Shown here: positions 40,091 to 51,542 of the stretch, piece by piece | How the letters are laid out: each line of letters opens with the position of its first letter | Numbering within the stretch: the first letter of the stretch is position 1 | DNA from: a virus | DNA: 51,542 nt | Virus record (IMG/VR): IMGVR_UViG_3300042891_001008 | Location: 1 to 51,542 of that record | Strand: one strand, 5' to 3' | The notes under the pieces: model-generated | Databases searched by the model: none | The model's input: the letters and a program-made list of their open reading frames with translations, nothing else | Told to the model about the DNA's origin: nothing | Program-made: the position numbers and the translations under genes

Positions 40091-40342
40091 ATGAAAAGAA
40101 ACATACCTACATTCGAGGAATTTTTAAATGAAGCTGCTCAATCACCTTCAGAAAAAGCTGCAGCAATAAGAGCTGCGGAAGAAGGAATCAGAAACGGAAT
40201 TAGAGATACTATGTTAAAGCTTAGAGATGATCCAGAAAATACTCCAATCCATAAAGCTAAATTAGATGTTCTGAATGCAAAGATGACTCTATTTAAGTTA
40301 ACACAAAAACTAGCAGCAGTAATTGCTAACCATAAGAAATAA
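40091..40342 (+). CDS. Capsid-targeted internal protein candidate (83 aa)
   Basis: The N-terminus (MKRNIPTFEEFLNEAAQ) matches the T4 capsid-targeting sequence found on internal proteins (MKTYQEFI-E type), with an L-N-E site after which a gp21-like prohead protease would cut. After cleavage, about 69 residues remain, helical and Ala/Lys/Arg-rich. Such proteins are packed with the DNA and injected into the host. The host target is unknown. Confidence 0.6.
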   Translation: MKRNIPTFEEFLNEAAQSPSEKAAAIRAAEEGIRNGIRDTMLKLRDDPENTPIHKAKLDVLNAKMTLFKLTQKLAAVIANHKK

Positions 40343-40344
40343 TA

Positions 40345-40563
40345 ATGAAAACGTTTAAAGAATACTCAGAAGAAGGATTCGTTAATGAATCTAAAAATTC
40401 AGATGCTTTAGCAAATGAGATTAATAAAGCAATGATTAAAATTGACGATTCTATGTCTTATTCGGATTTCGCTTTAGCCGTTGGTAAGATACTTAAAGAC
40501 GAATATGGATCTCATAATTTTGGCCCATTCATGAAAGTATTACATAAAGATCTAGGAATATAA
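40345..40563 (+). CDS. Capsid-targeted internal protein candidate (72 aa)
   Basis: The N-terminus (MKTFKEYSEEGFVNES) matches the T4 capsid-targeting pattern M-K-T-a-x-E-a and has S-E-E and V-N-E sites fit for a gp21-like protease. The mature part (about 57 residues) is helical and ends KVLHKDLGI. It begins 2 bp after the preceding stop and belongs to a run of three such genes. Confidence 0.6.
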   Translation: MKTFKEYSEEGFVNESKNSDALANEINKAMIKIDDSMSYSDFALAVGKILKDEYGSHNFGPFMKVLHKDLGI

Positions 40564-40573
40564 ATCAAATAAG

Positions 40574-40942
40574 ATGAAAACATTTAAAGAATATCTTGTA
40601 GAAAGTGGAACCTTTACCGAGATTGAAATTCACATGCTTAACGAAAACCTTAAGACCGAGCTTACTCAAGAAGAAGAGGCTAAGGTTGATAAAGCAATTA
40701 AAGAATTCGTTGCAGAATATCTCGAAAAGAATAAAGGAATGAAAGAATTTAATGAAGAGCTAACTAATGAAGGTTTCTTAGGATCTATTCTAGGAGGTCT
40801 TACTGGTTTTGCGTTAGGTTCTTCGATTGGAAAAATAATAGCTAATGTTTTAGGGATCGAAAAGGGAGTTGTATTTGATTTGTTAACTAGTCGTCTTGTT
40901 GGGGCTGCTCTCGGAGCTGCACTTGGCAAAAAGATGCTATAA
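40574..40942 (+). CDS. Capsid-targeted protein with glycine-zipper membrane segment (122 aa)
   Basis: The N-terminus (MKTFKEYLVESG) is again of capsid-targeting type with an L-V-E site. A second possible site is ELTNE-G near residue 67. The rest (FLGSILGGLTGFALGSSIG ... LVGAALGAALGKKML) contains glycine-zipper hydrophobic stretches characteristic of membrane-inserting proteins. A role at entry, such as membrane passage of DNA or superinfection exclusion, is inferred. Confidence 0.6.
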   Translation: MKTFKEYLVESGTFTEIEIHMLNENLKTELTQEEEAKVDKAIKEFVAEYLEKNKGMKEFNEELTNEGFLGSILGGLTGFALGSSIGKIIANVLGIEKGVVFDLLTSRLVGAALGAALGKKML

Positions 40943-41676: not shown

Positions 41677-42762
41677 ATGCCACTCGATAGAGCTTTTACG
41701 TATAATACTGGAGCAGCACCATCAGGAACTACAAAGGTTTCTGATATAACTGTAAAGGGATATACGTCTATTTATAATAGTGGATATAATTGGATTCCCG
41801 GACCAGATGAATCTTTAGGGTATGTAATTACTTATAGAGATCTAGCGAGAACTAGACCAGTTAAGAGTAATGCATATACTTCACCCTTAATTTTTTATAG
41901 AAGCTTAGATAAAACAGAATCCTCATTCGTTCAATTAACAAACAATCTTTTAGGAACTTCTGTTTCTACTGGGGATGATGCTAATAATGTTTTAAGAGCA
42001 GCCGGATATTGGAGCTCTTGGGGATTGACAATTGAAGGACTGTCTCTATATTATGATTTTTCTCATCCTAGATGTTATAATCAAAATACTAGAACCATCT
42101 ATAATTTAGTCGGTAATAGTGAAGGGTATGTAAAAAATGAAGTCTATTATAATGGATCTCAAGGAGTTCTGAGAACAATGGGATATAATAGTGGAGCTCA
42201 ATTTAATGTTGGTGATCGAATAGACATAAATACAACAGCCGGAGGAGTTGATAGATTTGGACAAACCAATTCATTTACTTTCGAATTCTGGGTTAAATAC
42301 AACAGTGGAAGTGGTAAGATTTTTTCAACTGGATCTGCTGGGACAGGAACCGGAAATTCTGATCAATGTATCTGGCAATTCTGGATAGAAAATGGAACTT
42401 GGTATTGGTGGAATTCTGGTGGAGGAGGTACAAATGCATTAATAACCGGTTTCAATTCACTAAATGCAGGAGTTTGGACTCATCTTGCAGCTACATATAC
42501 ATATAATGAAGCAGGAAATAATGTGATTAGAATATATAAAAACGGATCTCTAGATGTTATGGGATCTATTTCAACGGCAGCTCATAGTGCAATAGATCGA
42601 AGTGGAGATTCTAATATGCAATACACTTTAGGTGGAGGATATGCTAGTAGCTGTTATAATTCCAATTCTGCTAATGAGTTTGGGTCGTTTTCATGTTATA
42701 ATAGAGCTCTAACAGCATCAGAAATAGCTCGAAATTACAATACTACAAAATTTAGATTTTAA
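41677..42762 (+). CDS. Modular surface protein 1: shared anchor module plus LamG domain
   Basis: Residues 5-120 form a module shared with three other genes here: YNTGAAPSGTTKVSDITV, PGPDESLGYVI, SFVQLTNNLLG, AAGYWSSWG. The remaining 240 residues are a LamG/concanavalin-A-like domain (SFTFEFWVKYNSGSGKIF ... GVWTHLAATYTY ... VIRIYKNGSLDVMG ... LTASEIARNYN). LamG domains usually bind glycans or other proteins. A 121-bp gap with no recognised content precedes it. The virion site is unknown; the shared module probably docks it. Confidence 0.75.
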   Translation: MPLDRAFTYNTGAAPSGTTKVSDITVKGYTSIYNSGYNWIPGPDESLGYVITYRDLARTRPVKSNAYTSPLIFYRSLDKTESSFVQLTNNLLGTSVSTGDDANNVLRAAGYWSSWGLTIEGLSLYYDFSHPRCYNQNTRTIYNLVGNSEGYVKNEVYYNGSQGVLRTMGYNSGAQFNVGDRIDINTTAGGVDRFGQTNSFTFEFWVKYNSGSGKIFSTGSAGTGTGNSDQCIWQFWIENGTWYWWNSGGGGTNALITGFNSLNAGVWTHLAATYTYNEAGNNVIRIYKNGSLDVMGSISTAAHSAIDRSGDSNMQYTLGGGYASSCYNSNSANEFGSFSCYNRALTASEIARNYNTTKFRF

Positions 42763-42764
42763 AA

Positions 42765-42974
42765 ATGATAGTCAGAATTAGATATAAAAACCCACAAAAC
42801 TTAAGTGAATTTGTTATTGAAGAGCTAGATGATACAGTAGTAAATGTACCTCAATATTGCACTAATCTACATAAGACAGTTCTTTGTAGTGTTGAAGAAT
42901 CTTGCGATGGTGAAAATTGCAAGATTTGGGTAGAAATGAATGGAACTTTCATACTTGCAGGAGTACAAGAATAA
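42765..42974 (+). CDS. Hypothetical small protein (69 aa)
   Basis: Not recognised. Strand-rich, with four cysteines (YCTNLH, LCSVEESCDGENC) that could form disulfides or bind a metal. It lies 2 bp after the first modular surface gene and 18 bp before the second, so it is probably co-expressed with them and might aid their folding or attachment. Confidence 0.55.
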   Translation: MIVRIRYKNPQNLSEFVIEELDDTVVNVPQYCTNLHKTVLCSVEESCDGENCKIWVEMNGTFILAGVQE

Positions 42975-42992
42975 AAAAGAATATAACTAAAA

Positions 42993-44675
42993 ATGCCAAC
43001 AACGAGAGATTTCGGGTATAGCACAGGAGCTGCTCCTTCAGGATCTACAAAATACGGGAATGTTATTGTAAATCGTCCAACAAACGGATTTGCTGGAACC
43101 GGAATTCCTTGGATTGGAGGACCTGATGAGGATCTAGGATATTGTATAGCAAAATCAAATGTTAATCCGATATGGACTTCGCCGTCAGGAGTAAATTCTA
43201 GAGTAGGCTTTGGTAGATCTTTATTAAAAAGCGAACAATCATTTTTAGATCTCGTAAATAATGATTATGGTCAGAATTTTCAAGTTGGATCACAGGCATC
43301 TACATACCTTACTAACAATGGTGTTTGGAATTCTTATGGGCGTGACGGATATTCTTCAACAAATTTAATTCTTAGTTTGGATGCTACAAATCCGAATAGT
43401 GCCGGGGATATGGGATATTCTTCTTGGTATGACTTGAGCGGAAATGGAAATGACGGATCTATAGTTAATGGTGCATATTGGTCAGGGATTTTTGGTGGAG
43501 ATTTTTATTTTGATGGATCGGATGATAGAATAGTAACTCCAATTGGTGATATTGGTCCTGATGCAACATATGAGGCTGTTATATGTTCTTTTGGGAATGC
43601 TAATACCTATAATATGTTTATTGGACAATATCTCCCATATATTGGAGCGTATGATGGAAATTCTGTTGTTTACTCGGATTATATAAATGGAGGACAGACT
43701 TGGTTTAAAACAGATCCAGGAACAATAACCACAAATCAATACCATCATGTAATTTGTACAAGATCTTACGATCCTACTTCTAATACTACTAGGATGGAAA
43801 TATATATAGACGGAGTTCTGCAAAACGCCACGACTGTAGTTGGACAAAGAACGAATTTTGCTAGTCCGGAAAATATAACTATAGGGGATGGAGCCGCTTT
43901 CAATTGGTATACTTTTTATGGTAGAATCGCAATGGTTAGAGTTTATAATAAAGCTCTACCCTCTAATGAAATAGATCAAAATTATTTATATAGTAGAAGA
44001 AAAATGTTTACCACCACTTCTCTTTCTCTTTATATTGACGCTAGTCTTAATTCTTCATATCCTAATTCGGGAAATACGGTAAACGATCTTTCTGGAAATT
44101 CTCTCAATTTTACTAATGCTTTTGTTAGAAAGGGTAAGTTTGGAATAAACACGATATGGAGTAATGGGAATGATGTAGATTCTCCGACTACGTCAATTTT
44201 AAATAATGACCAACATAGTATTGAAATGATACTTATGTTTAAGAGTTCACCATCATACCCTAACGGTTGGACTGGAAGTTGGGAGCAATTCTTTGGATAT
44301 TACAGTGGAGGATCTGATAGATCTCCTGGAGTTTGGAGATATCCGAGTGAAAGGAGAATTCACTGGAGATATAGTCCAAATAATTCCGGGAACGATTTTG
44401 GAAAAAATTCATCATATGAAGAATTTGATCTTAATACATATTATCACATCGTCGTAACAAAAAACGGTGGAGATTGTAAAGCTTATGTTAATGGTGATTT
44501 AGCCGCGGCTAATTCTGTTTCGAATCCTAAAGATTCAGGAAATTCTATTATTAGATTTTATGATTATTACACATCCGACTTAATGGAGATACAAATGTGT
44601 AGAATTTATACAAGACCTTTAACCGAAACTGAAGTCCAAATAAATCGCGATTCACTAAAAAATAGAATAGGATAA
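42993..44675 (+). CDS. Modular surface protein 2: shared anchor module plus two LamG domains
   Basis: Residues 5-115 are the shared module (YSTGAAPSGSTKYGNVIV, GGPDEDLGYCI, VGFGRSL, NNGVWNSYG). Two LamG-like domains follow: about 122-330 (LILSLDATNPNS, WYDLSGNGNDGSI, NQYHHVICTRSYD, YIDGVLQN, IAMVRVYNKALPSNEI) and about 340-560 (LSLYIDASLNS, YYHIVVTKNGGDCKAYVNGDL, IQMCRIYTRPLTETEV). Each has the LamG hallmark of the last strand followed by L-(T/S)-x-x-E-I/V. Likely glycan- or protein-binding. Confidence 0.78.
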   Translation: MPTTRDFGYSTGAAPSGSTKYGNVIVNRPTNGFAGTGIPWIGGPDEDLGYCIAKSNVNPIWTSPSGVNSRVGFGRSLLKSEQSFLDLVNNDYGQNFQVGSQASTYLTNNGVWNSYGRDGYSSTNLILSLDATNPNSAGDMGYSSWYDLSGNGNDGSIVNGAYWSGIFGGDFYFDGSDDRIVTPIGDIGPDATYEAVICSFGNANTYNMFIGQYLPYIGAYDGNSVVYSDYINGGQTWFKTDPGTITTNQYHHVICTRSYDPTSNTTRMEIYIDGVLQNATTVVGQRTNFASPENITIGDGAAFNWYTFYGRIAMVRVYNKALPSNEIDQNYLYSRRKMFTTTSLSLYIDASLNSSYPNSGNTVNDLSGNSLNFTNAFVRKGKFGINTIWSNGNDVDSPTTSILNNDQHSIEMILMFKSSPSYPNGWTGSWEQFFGYYSGGSDRSPGVWRYPSERRIHWRYSPNNSGNDFGKNSSYEEFDLNTYYHIVVTKNGGDCKAYVNGDLAAANSVSNPKDSGNSIIRFYDYYTSDLMEIQMCRIYTRPLTETEVQINRDSLKNRIG

Positions 44676-44676
44676 C

Positions 44677-44775
44677 ATGGAACAAATACAAGGAAATTGC
44701 GTAGAATGTGGAGTAGAATCTCCACTAGACAACAATAACAAATGTTCAGTTTGTGGAACAAAAGATAAAAGATAG
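44677..44775 (+). CDS. Zinc-ribbon microprotein (32 aa)
   Basis: An ORF of 32 codons starts at ATG 44677 and ends TAG 44773-44775. It encodes two CxxC knuckles, CVECG and CSVCG, 13 residues between them, the pattern of a small zinc ribbon. It begins 1 bp after the previous stop and ends 5 bp before the next start, so it fits the operon. It could act as a small folding or binding partner; function unknown. Confidence 0.55.
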   Translation: MEQIQGNCVECGVESPLDNNNKCSVCGTKDKR

Positions 44776-44780
44776 ATCCA

Positions 44781-45050
44781 ATGAATTATGAAAATAGGAA
44801 ATTTATAATTTTTAACGTTACCGAATTAAATTTAGTAGATTTTTCTCAAGTTCTAGAAACTTCAATAGATACGGTTAGAAAATCCGTAAATAAAACTAAA
44901 TGTTTCGTAAAATGGGAAGGGGAAACTCCTACTTTCGTTAATAATATAACTACGAAAACCGGACCATATACTTATGATGAGATTATGGTAATTTTAAAAA
45001 CTGCGGAATGGCTTAATCCAGATCCTTTGAATTTAACACTAAATGGCTAA
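44781..45050 (+). CDS. Hypothetical protein (89 aa)
   Basis: Not recognised. A helical centre (FSQVLETSIDTVRKSVN) is followed by strands (CFVKWEGETPTFVNNI). No signal or membrane segment. It overlaps the third modular surface gene by 8 bp, so translation is probably coupled, suggesting a role with that protein. Confidence 0.6.
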   Translation: MNYENRKFIIFNVTELNLVDFSQVLETSIDTVRKSVNKTKCFVKWEGETPTFVNNITTKTGPYTYDEIMVILKTAEWLNPDPLNLTLNG

Positions 45051-45975
45051 TAACAGACCTTTCACATATTATACTGGACCTACAGCAGCAGGAACTACTA
45101 AGTTAGGAGATATCACAATCGGTCAACCTACTGCTGGCTTCCTTTCTACTGAATCTGATTGGTGGGCAGGTCCAGATGAGTCTTTAGGTTATGTAGTTTG
45201 TTTAGTGAGTCCTAGATCTACACCGATTGGTGTTACTGCTAATATTGGATTCAAAAGATCAACAGCACTAACTGAATCTTCTTTTATTCAATTAGCTAAT
45301 TCAATAGCTTTACAAACATTCACCACAGGGAACGAAGCCGCTAATTGGTTAACTTCTAACGGATATTGGACTACTTGGGTAGTAACTGATTTGATTAGAT
45401 CCTCTTTAGGGTCTACTGCACAAGCACTCTACGATGGAGCTACTGCTGGTAATTTTATTTCTGTTACCTCTACTGAGTATAACAATGTAGTAAGTGCTTT
45501 AAGTGCAACGGTAAATGGAACCTCGGAATCTGATTTTTTAGGAAGTAGTGGAACACCATGGGGAGGTTCAATAGGTATGGTAAATCCCACCCAATCACCT
45601 TTGTCTAGTTCTTCTTATATTATCGGATTCTCGCATATCCCTAATTCCGTTGGTACTCATGCTATTTTTGTCAGTACTACTGGAGTAACAGGAACATATA
45701 ATAGAGTAGGTAATGCTGTAACAGGAGGAAGTAGTCAAACTAGAACTTATTGGATTAGAAAAGCTCCATCATCAACAATAGGAGCTACTGGACATGTTTC
45801 GATTTTATCTACGGTTTCTTTAATAACAAAAGGACCTGCAATAAATCCAACATATTATAGACCTAGTCTTAATATTAGTACAACATCGTTTGGACCTTTT
45901 GGCTTTAATACGTGGAGTTCTAATAACGCATTTCCAGCATTTCAATATATAACAACTAACAATAGACAATGGTAA
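45043..45975 (+). CDS. Modular surface protein 3: shared anchor module plus unrecognised domain
   Basis: Residues 5-120 are the shared module (YYTGPTAAGTTKLGDITIG, AGPDESLGYVV, NIGFKRSTALTESSFIQLAN, NGYWTTW). The remaining 190 residues (TSTEYNNVVSALSATVNG, SSSSYIIGFSHIP, GTYNRVGNAVTGGSSQ) are beta-rich and match no domain that I recognise. It is the only family member without a LamG or PA14 domain, so the C-terminus may be a new binding domain. Confidence 0.72.
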   Translation: MANNRPFTYYTGPTAAGTTKLGDITIGQPTAGFLSTESDWWAGPDESLGYVVCLVSPRSTPIGVTANIGFKRSTALTESSFIQLANSIALQTFTTGNEAANWLTSNGYWTTWVVTDLIRSSLGSTAQALYDGATAGNFISVTSTEYNNVVSALSATVNGTSESDFLGSSGTPWGGSIGMVNPTQSPLSSSSYIIGFSHIPNSVGTHAIFVSTTGVTGTYNRVGNAVTGGSSQTRTYWIRKAPSSTIGATGHVSILSTVSLITKGPAINPTYYRPSLNISTTSFGPFGFNTWSSNNAFPAFQYITTNNRQW

Positions 45976-45990
45976 AAATAAAATTTAGAA

Positions 45991-46848
45991 ATGCCAACTA
46001 TTAGACCTTTCGTTTATAATACAGGAGCAACTGTGTCAGGGACCGAAAAGGTCTCTAATATTACTGCCGGTTATCCTTCAGGAGGATTTCCTGGTAGTGG
46101 AGTTACTGGTTGGAGAAATGGTCCGGATGAAGATCTAGGTTATGTTATAGCTTACACCGATGCTGGTCCAAGAACAGCAGGAGGGGGAATTGAAAATGCT
46201 ACAGGGGTGTCAATAGGATTCAAAAGATCTATTGCTAAAACAGATGAATCTTTTTTATCTTTGGCTAATTCAATAGGTGCTACTACATTTGCAAATGTAT
46301 CATTAGCAAAAACCTGGTTAAATGCCAATGGATATTGGACTTCATTTCTTCCATATATTGCAGGTCTATATAAGACTACTTATTCAGGATATTATGCCGA
46401 TAATGTTAATTTCTTTGCGACTGCAACACCCCAAACGTTTGGGTCAAACCCAGCCACATCAGTACAAACAACTTCTATATCAGAGCCAGGTTCAGATGAT
46501 GGATCTCAATTCAGTTGTCAATGGTTGGGTTATTTCAAACCAACTACTACTGAAACTTACACATTTTTTACCTCATCTGACGATGCATCCTATATGTGGA
46601 TTGGAGCAACTGCTATATCAGGGTTTACTACAACAAACGCTATAGTTCAAAATGGAGGACTACATGGTGTTCAAGAGCAATCTGGGTCGATCGGATTGAC
46701 TGCTGGAATTTACTATCCAATAAGAATACAATTTGGCGAAAATTCAGGCGGTGATGTATTAACTTTTAATTATTCAACTCCTACTATAACAAAAACAACT
46801 AACGTAACTGGATTAGTCTTCTATAATCCATCTACAAATGGATTTTAA
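45991..46848 (+). CDS. Modular surface protein 4: shared anchor module plus PA14-like domain
   Basis: Residues 5-125 are the shared module (YNTGATVSGTEKVSNITAG, NGPDEDLGYVIAY, IGFKRSIAKTDESFLSLAN, NGYWTSF). The C-terminal region from about 160 has the PA14 pattern: SCQWLGYFKPTTTETYTFF, SSDDASYMWIG, then GIYYPIRIQFGEN and a final strand. PA14 domains bind carbohydrate in adhesins, glycosidases and toxins. It completes the four-member set. Confidence 0.75.
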   Translation: MPTIRPFVYNTGATVSGTEKVSNITAGYPSGGFPGSGVTGWRNGPDEDLGYVIAYTDAGPRTAGGGIENATGVSIGFKRSIAKTDESFLSLANSIGATTFANVSLAKTWLNANGYWTSFLPYIAGLYKTTYSGYYADNVNFFATATPQTFGSNPATSVQTTSISEPGSDDGSQFSCQWLGYFKPTTTETYTFFTSSDDASYMWIGATAISGFTTTNAIVQNGGLHGVQEQSGSIGLTAGIYYPIRIQFGENSGGDVLTFNYSTPTITKTTNVTGLVFYNPSTNGF

Positions 46849-46864: not shown

Positions 46865-47503
46865 ATGAAAAATATACCTACATTCGAAGAATTCCTTTTT
46901 GAAGGAGAAGGAAAAAAACCTGAAGACGGTAAGAAACCTAGAGTAGGTCATACTGTTAAAAGAAGAACATATAAAGACGATCCACCTGAAGAAGGACTTT
47001 ATTCAAAAGGTGGTAAATCAGCAATCAAAGGAACTGGATATGCTAATAAAGAAAAAGCAGAATTCACGGTAAAGAAATTAGATTGGTTGATGAGTAAAGG
47101 TGAGAGAGTTTGGGCAATGTCTATTGCTACAACGATGGAAACTAGAGCTAAAATCCACCCTAATCAAACTCCTGAAATGAGAGATGCTCAAAAGATTTTT
47201 AGAGAATGGATTGATAAAAACAAAATCAAAGAATCTGAAGAGGTTTCAGAAGAGAAGAAAAGCACAGGACTTTTCCATGGAGGTGATAAAGATGCCATAA
47301 AAGGAACCGGTTATGGATCTAAAGAAAAAGCTCTCGCAACAATAAAAATCATAGATGATCTAAAGAAAAAAGATCATAGACATGCAATGGCAATCGCTAC
47401 AACTATGATGAATAGAGCTGAGTATTCAGCAAATCAAACCGATGGTATGAAGGAAGCTATTCCTATTTTTAAAGAATGGATTGAGAAAAACAGAAAGACG
47501 TAA
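46865..47503 (+). CDS. Capsid-targeted protein with two tandem repeat domains (212 aa)
   Basis: The N-terminus (MKNIPTFEEFLFEGEG) matches the capsid-targeting pattern with an L-F-E cleavage site. Two copies of a domain of about 70 residues follow, near 50-125 and 135-212: SAIKGTGYANKEKAEFTVKK and DAIKGTGYGSKEKALATIKI start them, and KIFREWIDKN and PIFKEWIEKN end them. The first copy is preceded by a charged linker. The domain is not recognised. Its last base overlaps the next gene. Confidence 0.62.
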   Translation: MKNIPTFEEFLFEGEGKKPEDGKKPRVGHTVKRRTYKDDPPEEGLYSKGGKSAIKGTGYANKEKAEFTVKKLDWLMSKGERVWAMSIATTMETRAKIHPNQTPEMRDAQKIFREWIDKNKIKESEEVSEEKKSTGLFHGGDKDAIKGTGYGSKEKALATIKIIDDLKKKDHRHAMAIATTMMNRAEYSANQTDGMKEAIPIFKEWIEKNRKT

Positions 47504-47886
47504 TGAGCAATTATTCAAGAGATAGCTTCTTAAAATACGATCAATTCTTAGTTGAAACTGCTTCTACCAATAAGCATATTATGTTAGTTGAAAAGAAATG
47601 GAATAAATCCGTTGAATCTTCTCATTTAAAAGAAATGAATTATGATGATGATACGAAGATATTAGAAATAGAATTCAATAATGGATCTAAATATCGTTAT
47701 CAAGAAGTTCCAAAAAATGTTTATCGAGAACTTGCCGAAGAACAAAATATCCTCAGAAAAATAGGATCAGGCATTGTTAAAGGGGCTAAGAAACTTTTTG
47801 GTAAGCAAGTTGAAGAAGGAACTTACGGAACTAGATTCTGGGATCTTATTCGAAGAGGAGGTTACGAATATGAAAAAATCGCATAA
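47503..47886 (+). CDS. KTSC-domain protein with capsid-targeting-like start (127 aa)
   Basis: Residues about 1-20 (SFLKYDQFLVETAS) resemble a capsid-targeting segment with an L-V-E site. Residues 33-75 (SVESSHLKEMNYDDDTKIL, EFNNGSKYRYQEVPKNVY) are a KTSC domain, whose S-S-x-L-K and Y-x-Y-x-x-V-P motifs are visible. The end GGYEYEKIA is also typical of it. A basic helical insertion (IGSGIVKGAKKLFGK) separates the two parts. KTSC domains occur in phage and bacterial proteins; function poorly known. Confidence 0.65.
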   Translation: MSNYSRDSFLKYDQFLVETASTNKHIMLVEKKWNKSVESSHLKEMNYDDDTKILEIEFNNGSKYRYQEVPKNVYRELAEEQNILRKIGSGIVKGAKKLFGKQVEEGTYGTRFWDLIRRGGYEYEKIA

Positions 47887-48242
47887 TGGCTAAATTAAAT
47901 ACGAATCTAATTAACTTTGAAAGCTACCGTAATAATTACGACGAATTATTAGAAGACAAAGAAAATTACTTCATATTTGTAAGAGCATTAACAGAGAAAA
48001 ATTACAATCTGTTTAAGGATGTTATAAATCCGAAAGGATTAAAAAGGAGTTGGAAAGCTAATCATTTAGATCATAGGTATTCAATTTCACAAGGATTCAA
48101 AGATAAAGTGGATCCTTTTCTTATTTCACATCCATGTAATTTGCAAATGTTGAAGGCTCGGATAAATAAGAAGAAGAACGCTAAATGCGACATAACAATT
48201 GAAGAGTTACTCGAAGGAGTAAACAACTTTGGAGAATTATGA
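47886..48242 (+). CDS. HNH-like endonuclease or zinc-free nuclease-fold protein (118 aa)
   Basis: Residues 59-98 (NHLDHRYSISQGF, then DPFLISHPCNLQMLKARINKKKN) match the short stand-alone HNH-type proteins of T4-like phages, with Asp62-His63, an HPCN helix start (Asn85) and Asn94/98. The pattern DH-x-x-S-I ... I-x-H-x-x-N-L-x-M supports the fold. It lacks CxxC zinc knuckles. It may be a homing nuclease or a DNA-binding relative. The stop overlaps the Rieske gene start by 4 bp (ATGA). Confidence 0.55.
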   Translation: MAKLNTNLINFESYRNNYDELLEDKENYFIFVRALTEKNYNLFKDVINPKGLKRSWKANHLDHRYSISQGFKDKVDPFLISHPCNLQMLKARINKKKNAKCDITIEELLEGVNNFGEL

Positions 48243-49312
48243 CAAATACAAAACATACGCCTAATATTGAGGATTATTTCGATCCGAAAATACAAGCAAA
48301 AGAGATCGAACGTTTATTTAATGATGTTCGATACACAGGTCACCAATTGATGGTACCAAACGATAATGATTATTACGTAGTTCCAAACACTAATAATCGT
48401 TGGACTTTGTTTAATCGAGGAGGTGAGCTATCATTACAGTCTAATGTTTGTCTTCATAGACAATCTAAACTGTTAGATGGGAGAGGAAATAAGAAGCTAA
48501 TTTCTTGTAGAGTTCATTGTTGGACCTATGACAAGGAGGGACAACTTAAAACTTCTCCACATTTTAGAGATAAGTTAGTTGGTGAATTAAGTAAGTTAAA
48601 AGTAAGTAATTGGAATGGTTTACTGTTCGAAGGTAGAACGCCAAATTTTGATCTTAAATCTTGTGGTATCGATGACCACATTAAATTCGATGATTATTTC
48701 TATCATAGCACAGAAACTACAGAGTACGGATATAATTGGAAAACCTTCGTTGAGGTGTATCTTGAAAACTATCATGTTTTCTCAATGCATCCAGGTTTAA
48801 GGAATTTCGTAACTCCGTCCGATTTGGAATGGCATTTTGGTGAAGATTATTCAGTGCAAAAAGTAGGGCTTGGATCTAATTTAAGTCTTGCGGGTTCTGA
48901 AAACTATCGACAATGGCAAGAAGCTGTACAAAAAGTACATGGAGAAGAGCTTCCTAGATATGGTGCAATATGGATCTACATCTACCCTAACATTATGGTA
49001 GAGTGGTATCCTCATACGATGGCGATAAGTACGATATATCCGGTGGAACCACAGAAATGTGTAAACCACGTAGAATATTATTACAACAAAGACATCTATG
49101 AAAACTTTCCGGAGTATTACGAAGCTATTCAGAAAATATATTCTGAAACAGCAGCCGAAGATGAAGAAGCATGTTTGCTCCTCGACCGAGGACGTTCATC
49201 TCTTTATCTGAACGGTGAAAATGAAAAGGGTCCTTGTGATCCATTCCTAGAGGCCGGAGTGCAAAAGTTCTATGAATATTTGCACTCTCGGATGGCTAGT
49301 GAAAACTTTTAG
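48239..49312 (+). CDS. Rieske non-heme iron oxygenase alpha-subunit-like protein
   Basis: Both metal centres are visible. The Rieske [2Fe-2S] ligands are Cys71-x-His73 (NVCLHR) and Cys90-x2-His93 (SCRVHCW), spaced as in ring-hydroxylating and choline monooxygenase-type enzymes. The mononuclear iron site is His179 and His184 in LENYHVFSMHPGL, preceded by NWKTF at 167-171, with a carboxylate (Asp308 or nearby Glu) in AAEDEEACLLLDRG. The length of 357 is normal. These enzymes use O2 and electrons from a reductase to hydroxylate or demethylate small molecules. No reductase or ferredoxin lies in the window. The substrate is unknown. Confidence 0.85.
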   Translation: MTNTKHTPNIEDYFDPKIQAKEIERLFNDVRYTGHQLMVPNDNDYYVVPNTNNRWTLFNRGGELSLQSNVCLHRQSKLLDGRGNKKLISCRVHCWTYDKEGQLKTSPHFRDKLVGELSKLKVSNWNGLLFEGRTPNFDLKSCGIDDHIKFDDYFYHSTETTEYGYNWKTFVEVYLENYHVFSMHPGLRNFVTPSDLEWHFGEDYSVQKVGLGSNLSLAGSENYRQWQEAVQKVHGEELPRYGAIWIYIYPNIMVEWYPHTMAISTIYPVEPQKCVNHVEYYYNKDIYENFPEYYEAIQKIYSETAAEDEEACLLLDRGRSSLYLNGENEKGPCDPFLEAGVQKFYEYLHSRMASENF

Positions 49313-49364: not shown

Positions 49365-50237
49365 ATGCAAATTGGTCAATCAAAAATTGAACATCCTATT
49401 AAATGCTTTATCACTTTCGGAAATGATCTTTTCAAGAATCAAAGAGAAAGATTAAGAAAACAAGCACAAGATACAGGATGGTTTGATAGAATTATTATAG
49501 AATCGCCAGAAACGATTCAAAATTTCCTTGCCCTCCACGATGATTTCGTAAAGAATAATAAGAGAGGTTATGGCTACTGGATTTGGAAGCCGTATATCAT
49601 TCTTAGACAACTTAATGAAATGAACGATGGAGATTTTTTGTTTTATACCGATTCGGGATCTACAATAGTTCCTCATATGAAACATAAACTTGATGCATAT
49701 ATCAAGGCAATGGAGGAATCGGATAGACCAGTTATGACTTTTTGTGGATCCGGTTATCCTGGATATCCAGAAAAGAAATTTCAAAAAATGAAACTCTTAA
49801 AAAGGTTTGTTTCTGATGGAAAAACCTTAGATCAAAATCCAGAATTTATGGATTCTCCTCAAATCGAAAGTGGAGTTTTTATGTGTCGAAAGACTAATTT
49901 TTCAGTTGAATTTGTCCAATTATGGTTAAACCTAGTATTGGAAAATAATTACAATCTCGTTAACGACGAAGATGATTTTCAACAAGATGAAAATTTTATA
50001 GATCATAGACACGATCAATCAATCTTAAGTATCTTATGTAAGTTAAATAAAACTCCTATGTGGGTTGGTGAAGCTTATGGATTAGGACCTTTTTATTCAA
50101 GCAGATTAACTGATGAAGGACCTAGAGAATTTGCACCAGATAAATTCCGAGTAGAACCAGATTATGATCCAAACAAACATCATACTTGGGCTGATTGGTT
50201 AGCCGATCCAAATGTAAATAAATCTATAGTACCGTAA
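49365..50237 (+). CDS. Putative glycosyltransferase (GYWIWKP family)
   Basis: The segment RGYGYWIWKPYIILRQL (about 67-83), followed by NDGDFLFYTDSGS (about 87-99), is the signature of a GT-A-like family of sugar transferases found in bacterial polysaccharide loci. The Asp in YTDSG is the likely nucleotide-sugar or metal ligand. The 290-residue length is usual. A later DHRHDQSILSIL segment fits the family's acceptor side. It lies after the Rieske gene and before gp32. The acceptor (DNA, protein, or host glycan) is unknown. Confidence 0.7.
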   Translation: MQIGQSKIEHPIKCFITFGNDLFKNQRERLRKQAQDTGWFDRIIIESPETIQNFLALHDDFVKNNKRGYGYWIWKPYIILRQLNEMNDGDFLFYTDSGSTIVPHMKHKLDAYIKAMEESDRPVMTFCGSGYPGYPEKKFQKMKLLKRFVSDGKTLDQNPEFMDSPQIESGVFMCRKTNFSVEFVQLWLNLVLENNYNLVNDEDDFQQDENFIDHRHDQSILSILCKLNKTPMWVGEAYGLGPFYSSRLTDEGPREFAPDKFRVEPDYDPNKHHTWADWLADPNVNKSIVP

Positions 50238-50378: not shown

Positions 50379-51326
50379 ATGGAAAACAATTTCGACATCT
50401 TCAACCTGAGTCTTGATAATTTCAAGACCGAAGAAAAACAAAAATCAGGTGGATCTGACATCTATAAAACAGATCCTAAATTATCTAAAGATTCTATCTA
50501 CAGAGCAATCGTAAGGTTCATCCCGAACACCAAAAACCCTAAACAATCTATCGTTAAGAAATTCTCTTATTGGTTAGAAGACGCTGAAGGTAATGGATTC
50601 TATGCTGACTGTCCTTCGTCAATCAACGAAAAATCAGTTATCCAAGATACATTCTGGAAGTTATTCAAATCAGAATCAGCTTTTGATAAAAAACAAGCTG
50701 AAAGAATTAAACGTAAAGAGTATTACTACTCTTATGTAGAAATCATTAAGGATGCACAACGTCCTGAAATGGAAGGAACCGTTCAAATCTTACGTTACCC
50801 TAAAGCGGTTAAGAAATTAATCGATGCACAAATCTCTCCAGATTCTTCTGATATCGAATTAGGGGTTGATCCAACTAACATCTTCGACTTCTTCAATGGT
50901 AAAGACTTCTCTTTGAAAGTAACATTGAAAGGTGGATATTGGAATTATGACGAATGTAAATTCGCTGCTGCACAATCTCCAATTTCTGTCGGTGGTGTAA
51001 AAATGGAAAACAACGCTGAATGTCGACAAATGATCTTAGGTCTTTATGAAGGCATTCCTGAATTGGATGTCCACGCTTTCAAACCTTGGTCAGATGAAAT
51101 CAGAGACAGAGTACATGCTTATCTAGGTGACTTAACAGGAAATCCAGGTAAATCATACGCTTCTACAACTAATTATTCAAAAGTTGAAACTCCTGTTGCT
51201 TCGGCACCAGTTACTTCTCAACCTAAAAACGAAACTCCAATGGACTTAGGTCAAGCTTCTAATCAAGCTGCAACCTCTTCAGACGGAGATATCGAAGACT
51301 GGTTGAAAGAATTCGACATGAAATAA
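50379..51326 (+). CDS. 32: Single-stranded DNA-binding protein, gp32
   Basis: The 315-residue length, OB-fold centre and acidic tail are those of T4 gp32. PTNIFDFFNGKDFSLKVTLKGGYWNYDECKF (about 166-196, quoted here in parts as NIFDFFNGKDFSLKV and GGYWNYDECKF) matches the gp32 FEGxNFxLKV-GxxNYDxSxF region. The C-terminus (DGDIEDWLKEFDMK) is the acidic peptide that recruits replication partners. The Zn-binding His/Cys set of T4 gp32 is not conserved: only one Cys (79) lies in that segment. It covers ssDNA in replication and recombination. A terminator follows. Confidence 0.85.
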   Translation: MENNFDIFNLSLDNFKTEEKQKSGGSDIYKTDPKLSKDSIYRAIVRFIPNTKNPKQSIVKKFSYWLEDAEGNGFYADCPSSINEKSVIQDTFWKLFKSESAFDKKQAERIKRKEYYYSYVEIIKDAQRPEMEGTVQILRYPKAVKKLIDAQISPDSSDIELGVDPTNIFDFFNGKDFSLKVTLKGGYWNYDECKFAAAQSPISVGGVKMENNAECRQMILGLYEGIPELDVHAFKPWSDEIRDRVHAYLGDLTGNPGKSYASTTNYSKVETPVASAPVTSQPKNETPMDLGQASNQAATSSDGDIEDWLKEFDMK

Positions 51327-51384: not shown

Positions 51385-51542
51385 ATGAAAGGAATCGTAT
51401 TAGCAGCCGGGAAAGGGACCCGACTTTATCCAATAACAATCCCAACAGTAAAACAATTAATGCCGGTTTATGACAAACCGATGATCTATTATCCGATTTC
51501 AGTTCTTATGTTAGCTGGAATCAAGGACATTCTCATTATTAC
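51385..51542 (+). CDS. rmlA: Glucose-1-phosphate thymidylyltransferase (RmlA), 3' end outside window
   Basis: ATG at 51385 opens a frame to the window end (52 full codons). It starts [16 protein letters not shown], the nucleotide-binding signature G-x-G-T-R-L-x-P of sugar nucleotidyltransferases, followed by [16 protein letters not shown], which is specific to RmlA. The enzyme makes dTDP-glucose, the first step to dTDP-rhamnose and related sugars. It follows the gp32 terminator, so it probably has its own promoter. Further rml genes may lie beyond the window. Confidence 0.9.

Follow-up and report, generated by a model that had tools for sequence, protein, structure and literature searches.

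The locus described here raises the question of why a phage should carry a Rieske oxygenase, and on which substrate such an enzyme would act. The window (the whole stretch of DNA analyzed, a virus record of 51,542 bases) comes from a T4-like phage and encodes, besides a gp32-like and a RuvC-like protein, a series of head and tail proteins. The oxygenase gene occupies positions 48239 to 49312 of the plus strand, where a complete open reading frame begins with ATG, encodes 357 amino acids, and overlaps the upstream gene by 4 bp (ATGA at 48239 to 48242), in agreement with the original prediction of an intact gene. Taking together the reading frame, the Pfam matches, the structural model, and the tree, we propose for this Rieske non-heme iron oxygenase the function of a putrescine (diamine) 2-hydroxylase.

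The protein consists of a Rieske [2Fe-2S] domain (residues 39 to 110; positions 48353 to 48568, plus strand) and a catalytic domain (residues 150 to 353; positions 48686 to 49297, plus strand), the first marked by its invariant ligands and the second by the residue counts of the alignment. They match the Pfam families PF00355 (Rieske, E of 5.6e-11) and PF00848 (Ring_hydroxyl_A, E of 1.9e-32), respectively, both above the curated cutoffs. A search of the PHROGs gave no family for the oxygenase, and in NCBIfam its family fell below the cutoff of every model. The cluster ligands C71, H73, C90, and H93 form a CxH...CxxH motif, and the mononuclear iron site is a 2-His-1-carboxylate arrangement of H179, H184, and D308. 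The cluster ligands and the two iron-binding histidines, which had been recognized in the original prediction, were found by alignment to be invariant in 21 of 21 further viral and 27 of 27 betaproteobacterial rows, as well as in the outgroups. The third iron ligand (D308) and the bridging acid (E176, replaced by D in some phages) are added here.

An AlphaFold2 model obtained from 8 sequences was too poor (pLDDT of 58.7) and was replaced by one from 43 sequences, with a mean pLDDT of 93.4. Foldseek searches with the latter returned Rieske monooxygenases as the top PDB matches (E of about 1e-20, the best being 1.8e-20), the nearest folds being carnitine monooxygenase CntA (6y9c) and stachydrine demethylase (3vca/4quq). 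The structural modeling that had been proposed as a check yields a confident model with a Rieske monooxygenase fold. With motif, iron site, and fold all in place, the window gene is the alpha subunit of a Rieske non-heme iron oxygenase.

T4-like genes on either side of the oxygenase and the recurrence of its site in relatives exclude host contamination or a mis-binned fragment. Relatives of the oxygenase were found at at least 31 loci in IMG/VR, many of them on contigs of 80 to 254 kb that also encode T4-like replication and structural proteins; these loci and the T4-like context of the window bear out the phage origin first assigned to the gene. A tblastn search of an annotated phage collection gave no genuine phage record matching the oxygenase, and literature searches on phage Rieske oxygenases returned nothing relevant. 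Four matches in the phage collection were discarded as bacterial operons (antA, benABC). The records concerned (CAKLQH020000044, CAKLQH020000032, CAKLQF020000022, and CAKLQF020000006) bear the title "Acinetobacter phage MD-2021a," hold ordinary bacterial operons, and are apparently mislabeled.

In the window, the oxygenase lies in a cargo site bordered on the left by an HNH-like gene (47886 to 48242, plus strand) and on the right by the gene for a gp32-like single-strand DNA-binding protein (50379 to 51326, plus strand; PF08804 and phrog_224). The HNH-like neighbor of the original prediction is present, although its PHROG matches are only to families of unknown function (phrog_23051 and phrog_5104). 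The site was compared across 48 loci retrieved with the window's gp32 protein. Just three of them have the oxygenase adjoining gp32, namely, L185, L186 (from the record of L011), and L189 (from the record of L025). The same-site oxygenases of these three relatives are 67, 67, and 59% identical to that of the window. In L187, L188, L190, L192, L194, and L195, the HNH-like gene almost abuts gp32, with no oxygenase between them, and in the related records G011, G012, and G030 the oxygenase is located elsewhere. Within the window's clade, 6 of 39 records have it. G010 and G011 share many core genes at 60 to 93% identity, whereas their oxygenases are only 45% identical. Since the occupancy of the site varies and the oxygenases have diverged beyond the core genes, the oxygenase is an optional, mobile accessory phage gene rather than a fragment recently taken from a host. 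Phage genes flank it and its presence varies among related phages, as in a phage accessory metabolic gene. The original prediction had tied its case to conservation in related phages, and this holds in part: the gene keeps the same site in three relatives and is absent or elsewhere in others.

Between the oxygenase and gp32, an open reading frame for a 290-amino-acid protein (49365 to 50237, plus strand) gave no match in Pfam, the PHROGs, or NCBIfam and has no counterpart in the viral loci tested. Beyond gp32, the window ends within the 5' part of an rmlA-like open reading frame (51385 to 51542, plus strand), in a position held by a complete gene in L025. It was from neighbors of this kind that a modification of a sugar, a base, or a surface component of phage or host had been suggested. 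The rmlA gene named there does start at 51385, but the "glycosyltransferase" is the 290-amino-acid protein just described, which none of these three databases recognizes. Although the rmlA-like gene and the unassigned 290-amino-acid protein are near the oxygenase, L011 and L025 lack the 290-amino-acid gene beside theirs, unrelated genes surround the oxygenase in L012, L013, and the betaproteobacterial phages, and the closest cellular relatives lie outside sugar clusters. Sugar-type neighbors are therefore not kept beside the gene, while its family and paralogs point to putrescine hydroxylation, which makes the suggested role very improbable.

Elsewhere in the window, small proteins encoded at 40091 to 40342, 40345 to 40563, 40574 to 40942, 46865 to 47503, 47503 to 47886, and 47886 to 48242 have a common N terminus such as MKTFxEFLxE. 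It is also found on many open reading frames of L011, L025, and L166 and resembles the capsid-targeting sequence that T4 internal head proteins carry. It may be that the phage packages and injects the HNH-like and KTSC proteins encoded next to the oxygenase. Four tandem genes (41677 to 42762, 42993 to 44675, 45043 to 45975, and 45991 to 46848) have a common N-terminal segment and differing C-terminal parts, one of which is a LamG-type lectin domain; this tandem (41677 to 46848) looks like an adhesin or tail fiber cassette. At positions 2 to 1525, a long protein with collagen-like GTxGxQG repeats is truncated by the start of the window.

An indication of the substrate comes from the closest cellular relatives of the oxygenase, which are betaproteobacterial and align over their full length with 43 to 48% identity. 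Of 150 Burkholderiales genomes, 131 have one strong copy, among them some of 1.3 to 2 Mb; across Pseudomonadota, a strong match was seen in just 13 of 199 genomes. At NCBI, the betaproteobacterial gene is named only "aromatic ring-hydroxylating dioxygenase subunit alpha," and its neighbors (xseB-ispA-dxs, a DMT transporter, and a sulfurtransferase) indicate no pathway. A ubiquinone hydroxylase, considered in view of the xseB-ispA-dxs neighborhood and of the near-universality of the gene, was excluded since UbiH, UbiI, and Coq7 already serve this purpose (PMC5069965).

Two further paralogs, here called alc type, were found in a plasmid collection (Caballeronia and Cupriavidus) and are 37 and 35% identical to the window protein. 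Each is encoded last in an operon of the order SidA/IucD (lysine/ornithine N-monooxygenase), MFS (exporter), GNAT (acyltransferase), IucA/IucC (synthetase), FhuF-type reductase, and Rieske protein. In the alcaligin cluster, AlcE, an iron-sulfur protein, C-hydroxylates a putrescine-derived precursor (PMC3510459), and since the two operons match the makeup of this cluster, their Rieske paralog occupies the place of AlcE. In our comparison, these operons stand in for the assayed enzymes of Bordetella and Ralstonia. Li et al., in 2016, are reported to have identified a Rieske protein. The putrescine hydroxylases of Bordetella bronchiseptica and Ralstonia solanacearum have been put forward as a possible model for the synthesis of 2-hydroxyputrescine (PMC10385936, a review citing Li et al. 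2016). This diamine is present in Burkholderia and Cupriavidus (PMC10385936) and has been reported in Massilia (PMC9028926) and Delftia (PMC5977210), a distribution with which a near-universal, one-copy betaproteobacterial gene agrees.

The outgroups of the tree were paralogs of the CntA and GbcA types encoded by the same bacteria; apart from them, the phage, betaproteobacterial, and alc-type sequences formed a single group. The window protein is 44% identical (median) to the bacterial family, compared with 22 to 24% to the outgroups, and 35 to 37% identical to the alc type. G186, A243, E255, S264, and R319 are among the residues that are conserved without exception in the 51 rows of the family and that the outgroups lack. 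From the model and the alignment, E255 sits on a strand of the catalytic domain, where it could hold an amine, or the second amine, of the substrate. These data bear on whether the enzyme might instead be an N-demethylase or monooxygenase of quaternary ammonium compounds, of the carnitine, stachydrine, or glycine betaine type, as its top fold and profile matches (CntA and stachydrine demethylase) would have it. The identity behind those matches is only about 20%, however, and the GbcA model gives 44.6 bits on the window protein against a cutoff of 670. The family-specific residues differ as well, and the genuine CntA- and GbcA-type paralogs of the same bacteria are a distant, separate group. 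We consider such an activity highly unlikely.

It is the betaproteobacterial and alc-type enzymes that anchor the assignment as a putrescine hydroxylase. Both the alc-type pair and the clade of betaproteobacterial phages nest within the bacterial tree, the copies of these phages being 51% (median) and at most 58% identical to the bacterial ones. The window's clade is placed outside the anchored clade, as its sister, and an all-virus clade gave a p-AU of 0.125, so that a single origin of the phage copies is neither rejected nor shown. Given this sister position and an identity of only 44%, the substrate of the window's clade may have shifted relative to that of the anchored clade. Shine-Dalgarno signals precede at most 6% of the starts in the window's clade, which is below background, versus 39 to 50% in the betaproteobacterial phages, and from their near absence we infer that the host of the window's clade is probably a member of the Bacteroidota. 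The same chemistry on another amine suiting this presumed host (cadaverine, agmatine, spermidine, or homospermidine) would be consistent with the position outside the anchored clade, with the scarce Shine-Dalgarno signals, and with the retention of the family-specific residues around the catalytic sheet. Nevertheless, no conserved residue sets the window enzyme apart from the putrescine-type enzymes, and a change of amine seems unlikely.

A role in polyamine metabolism is favored by the co-occurrence of the oxygenase with a SpeD-like (AdoMet decarboxylase family) gene, which constitutes support and not proof. The latter gene is present in all four large oxygenase-positive relatives of the window (G010, G011, G012, and G030) and in a record of a betaproteobacterial phage (G004), compared with one of the seven gp32 relatives of at least 100 kb that have no oxygenase. 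With G012 and G030 counted once, the association has a one-sided Fisher p of 0.033, obtained from few and related genomes. The SpeD-like proteins match PF02675 and fall below the cutoff of TIGR03330, in keeping with the described evolution of some phage SpeD homologs into decarboxylases of ornithine or arginine (PMC9992855). A search of 21 records for a PLP-type ornithine decarboxylase found none. A Pfam scan of most G010 proteins gave no further polyamine family among the matches listed, and the 51.5-kb record of the window, probably a partial genome, contains no other polyamine gene. G010, a related 144-kb phage (loci L152 to L155), also encodes IF-3 (both Pfam domains), a Thg1-like protein, and a 3-hydroxyacyl-CoA dehydrogenase.

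A link of another kind was noticed in L004 and L002, where FolE-, QueD-, and QueE-like genes flank the oxygenase (L004, 6391 to 12438; L002, 828 to 7351; QueD by Pfam, the others by eye). If the oxygenase modified a deazaguanine base or precursor in a phage 7-deazaguanine pathway for DNA or tRNA, one could account for the QueD-type gene near it in both loci, for the PF01242 (QueD-type) matches in 16 of 31 viral records, which are common in betaproteobacterial phages, and for QueC above its cutoff in three records. Yet the large records of the window's clade (144 to 254 kb) have no QueD, QueC, or TGT match, TGT is missing from 31 of 31 records, and the bacterial family is a one-copy gene of Betaproteobacteria beside unrelated genes. 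The link was dropped as a general explanation because the window's clade lacks QueD, QueC, and TGT, and a deazaguanine substrate has little probability. A protein of L004 (798 to 2264) that appeared DpdA-like by eye has no Pfam match, and this identity is not claimed. In L005 (8989 to 17922), another locus of a betaproteobacterial phage, the oxygenase is grouped with a PP-loop-like enzyme, two fatty-acid desaturases, and TauD-like and other Fe/2OG-type oxygenases, all named by eye only.

Phages depend on polyamines and encode polyamine enzymes, and a lack of spermidine slows the growth of T4 and T7 (PMC9992855). Together with the distribution of the bacterial family, the alc-type operons, the tree and family-specific residues, and the co-occurring SpeD-like gene, this use of polyamines leads us to propose putrescine hydroxylation. 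We consider it probable, on sequence grounds, that the oxygenase is the phage counterpart of the AlcE-like Rieske putrescine 2-hydroxylase of Betaproteobacteria, with putrescine as its main substrate.

In the mechanism that we envisage, a ferredoxin or flavodoxin of the host and its reductase would reduce the Rieske cluster; the bacterial gene is solitary too, and no Fer2 ferredoxin partner was found in 17 viral records. The electron would then move, as expected for the family, through E176 to the iron of the adjacent subunit, and O2 would be activated at the mononuclear iron (H179, H184, and D308) that neighbors the [2Fe-2S] cluster. The enzyme would then hydroxylate putrescine or a close diamine on one of its carbons, presumably giving 2-hydroxyputrescine. 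In the same cell, the SpeD-like gene of the phage could boost the supply of putrescine, agmatine, or spermidine, and the hydroxylated product may enter the polyamine pool; the phage would probably benefit from a pool altered in this way for the packing and neutralizing of its DNA or for translation. Polyamines contribute to the positive charge by which the DNA inside a phage head is neutralized. More tentatively, and with considerable doubt on our part, T4-like phages of Bacteroidota might make 2-hydroxyputrescine or another hydroxylated polyamine that is foreign to the host, with the SpeD-like protein as partner. It could serve as a phage-specific counter-ion, or its synthesis could drain putrescine from the host's production of spermidine or homospermidine.

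The main text of a 2023 survey of viral polyamine enzymes contains no hydroxylase, hydroxyputrescine, or Rieske protein (PMC9992855), and a phage polyamine hydroxylase therefore appears to be undescribed in the literature covered. If the proposal is correct, the oxygenase would add a new type to the polyamine genes of phages, joining two known kinds, the Rieske polyamine hydroxylase and the phage polyamine gene, and a virus would be editing a diamine chemically, beyond altering its amount. A probable function would also be available for a near-universal betaproteobacterial gene that carries a generic ring-hydroxylating dioxygenase name.

Among known systems, the betaproteobacterial putrescine 2-hydroxylase/AlcE (Li et al. 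2016, doi 10.1021/acschembio.6b00629, via PMC10385936; PMC3510459) is homologous over its full length and has the same ligands and family residues, and both enzymes are solitary, without a ferredoxin or reductase of their own. The enzyme described here differs in being phage borne, in belonging to a sister clade, and in having a substrate that is predicted only. CntA (6y9c) and stachydrine demethylase (3vca/4quq) offer the closest solved fold and are alike in consisting of the alpha subunit only and in the acidic bridging residue, but they have about 20% identity, another active-site strand, and another expected substrate; the CntA- and GbcA-type outgroup paralogs lack E255, S264, and R319. 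The known phage polyamine enzymes, namely, AdoMetDC/SpeD, pyruvoyl ODC/ADC, and spermidine N-acetyltransferase (PMC9992855), are likewise products of accessory genes acting on the polyamine pool, and SpeD-like genes co-occur with the oxygenase, whose O2- and iron-dependent chemistry sets it apart from the enzymes surveyed. Finally, PhiW-14 is a T4-like phage with putrescinyl-thymine in its DNA and a Delftia host that makes 2-hydroxyputrescine (PMC5977210); in contrast to the pool proposed here, its putrescine is covalently attached to the base.
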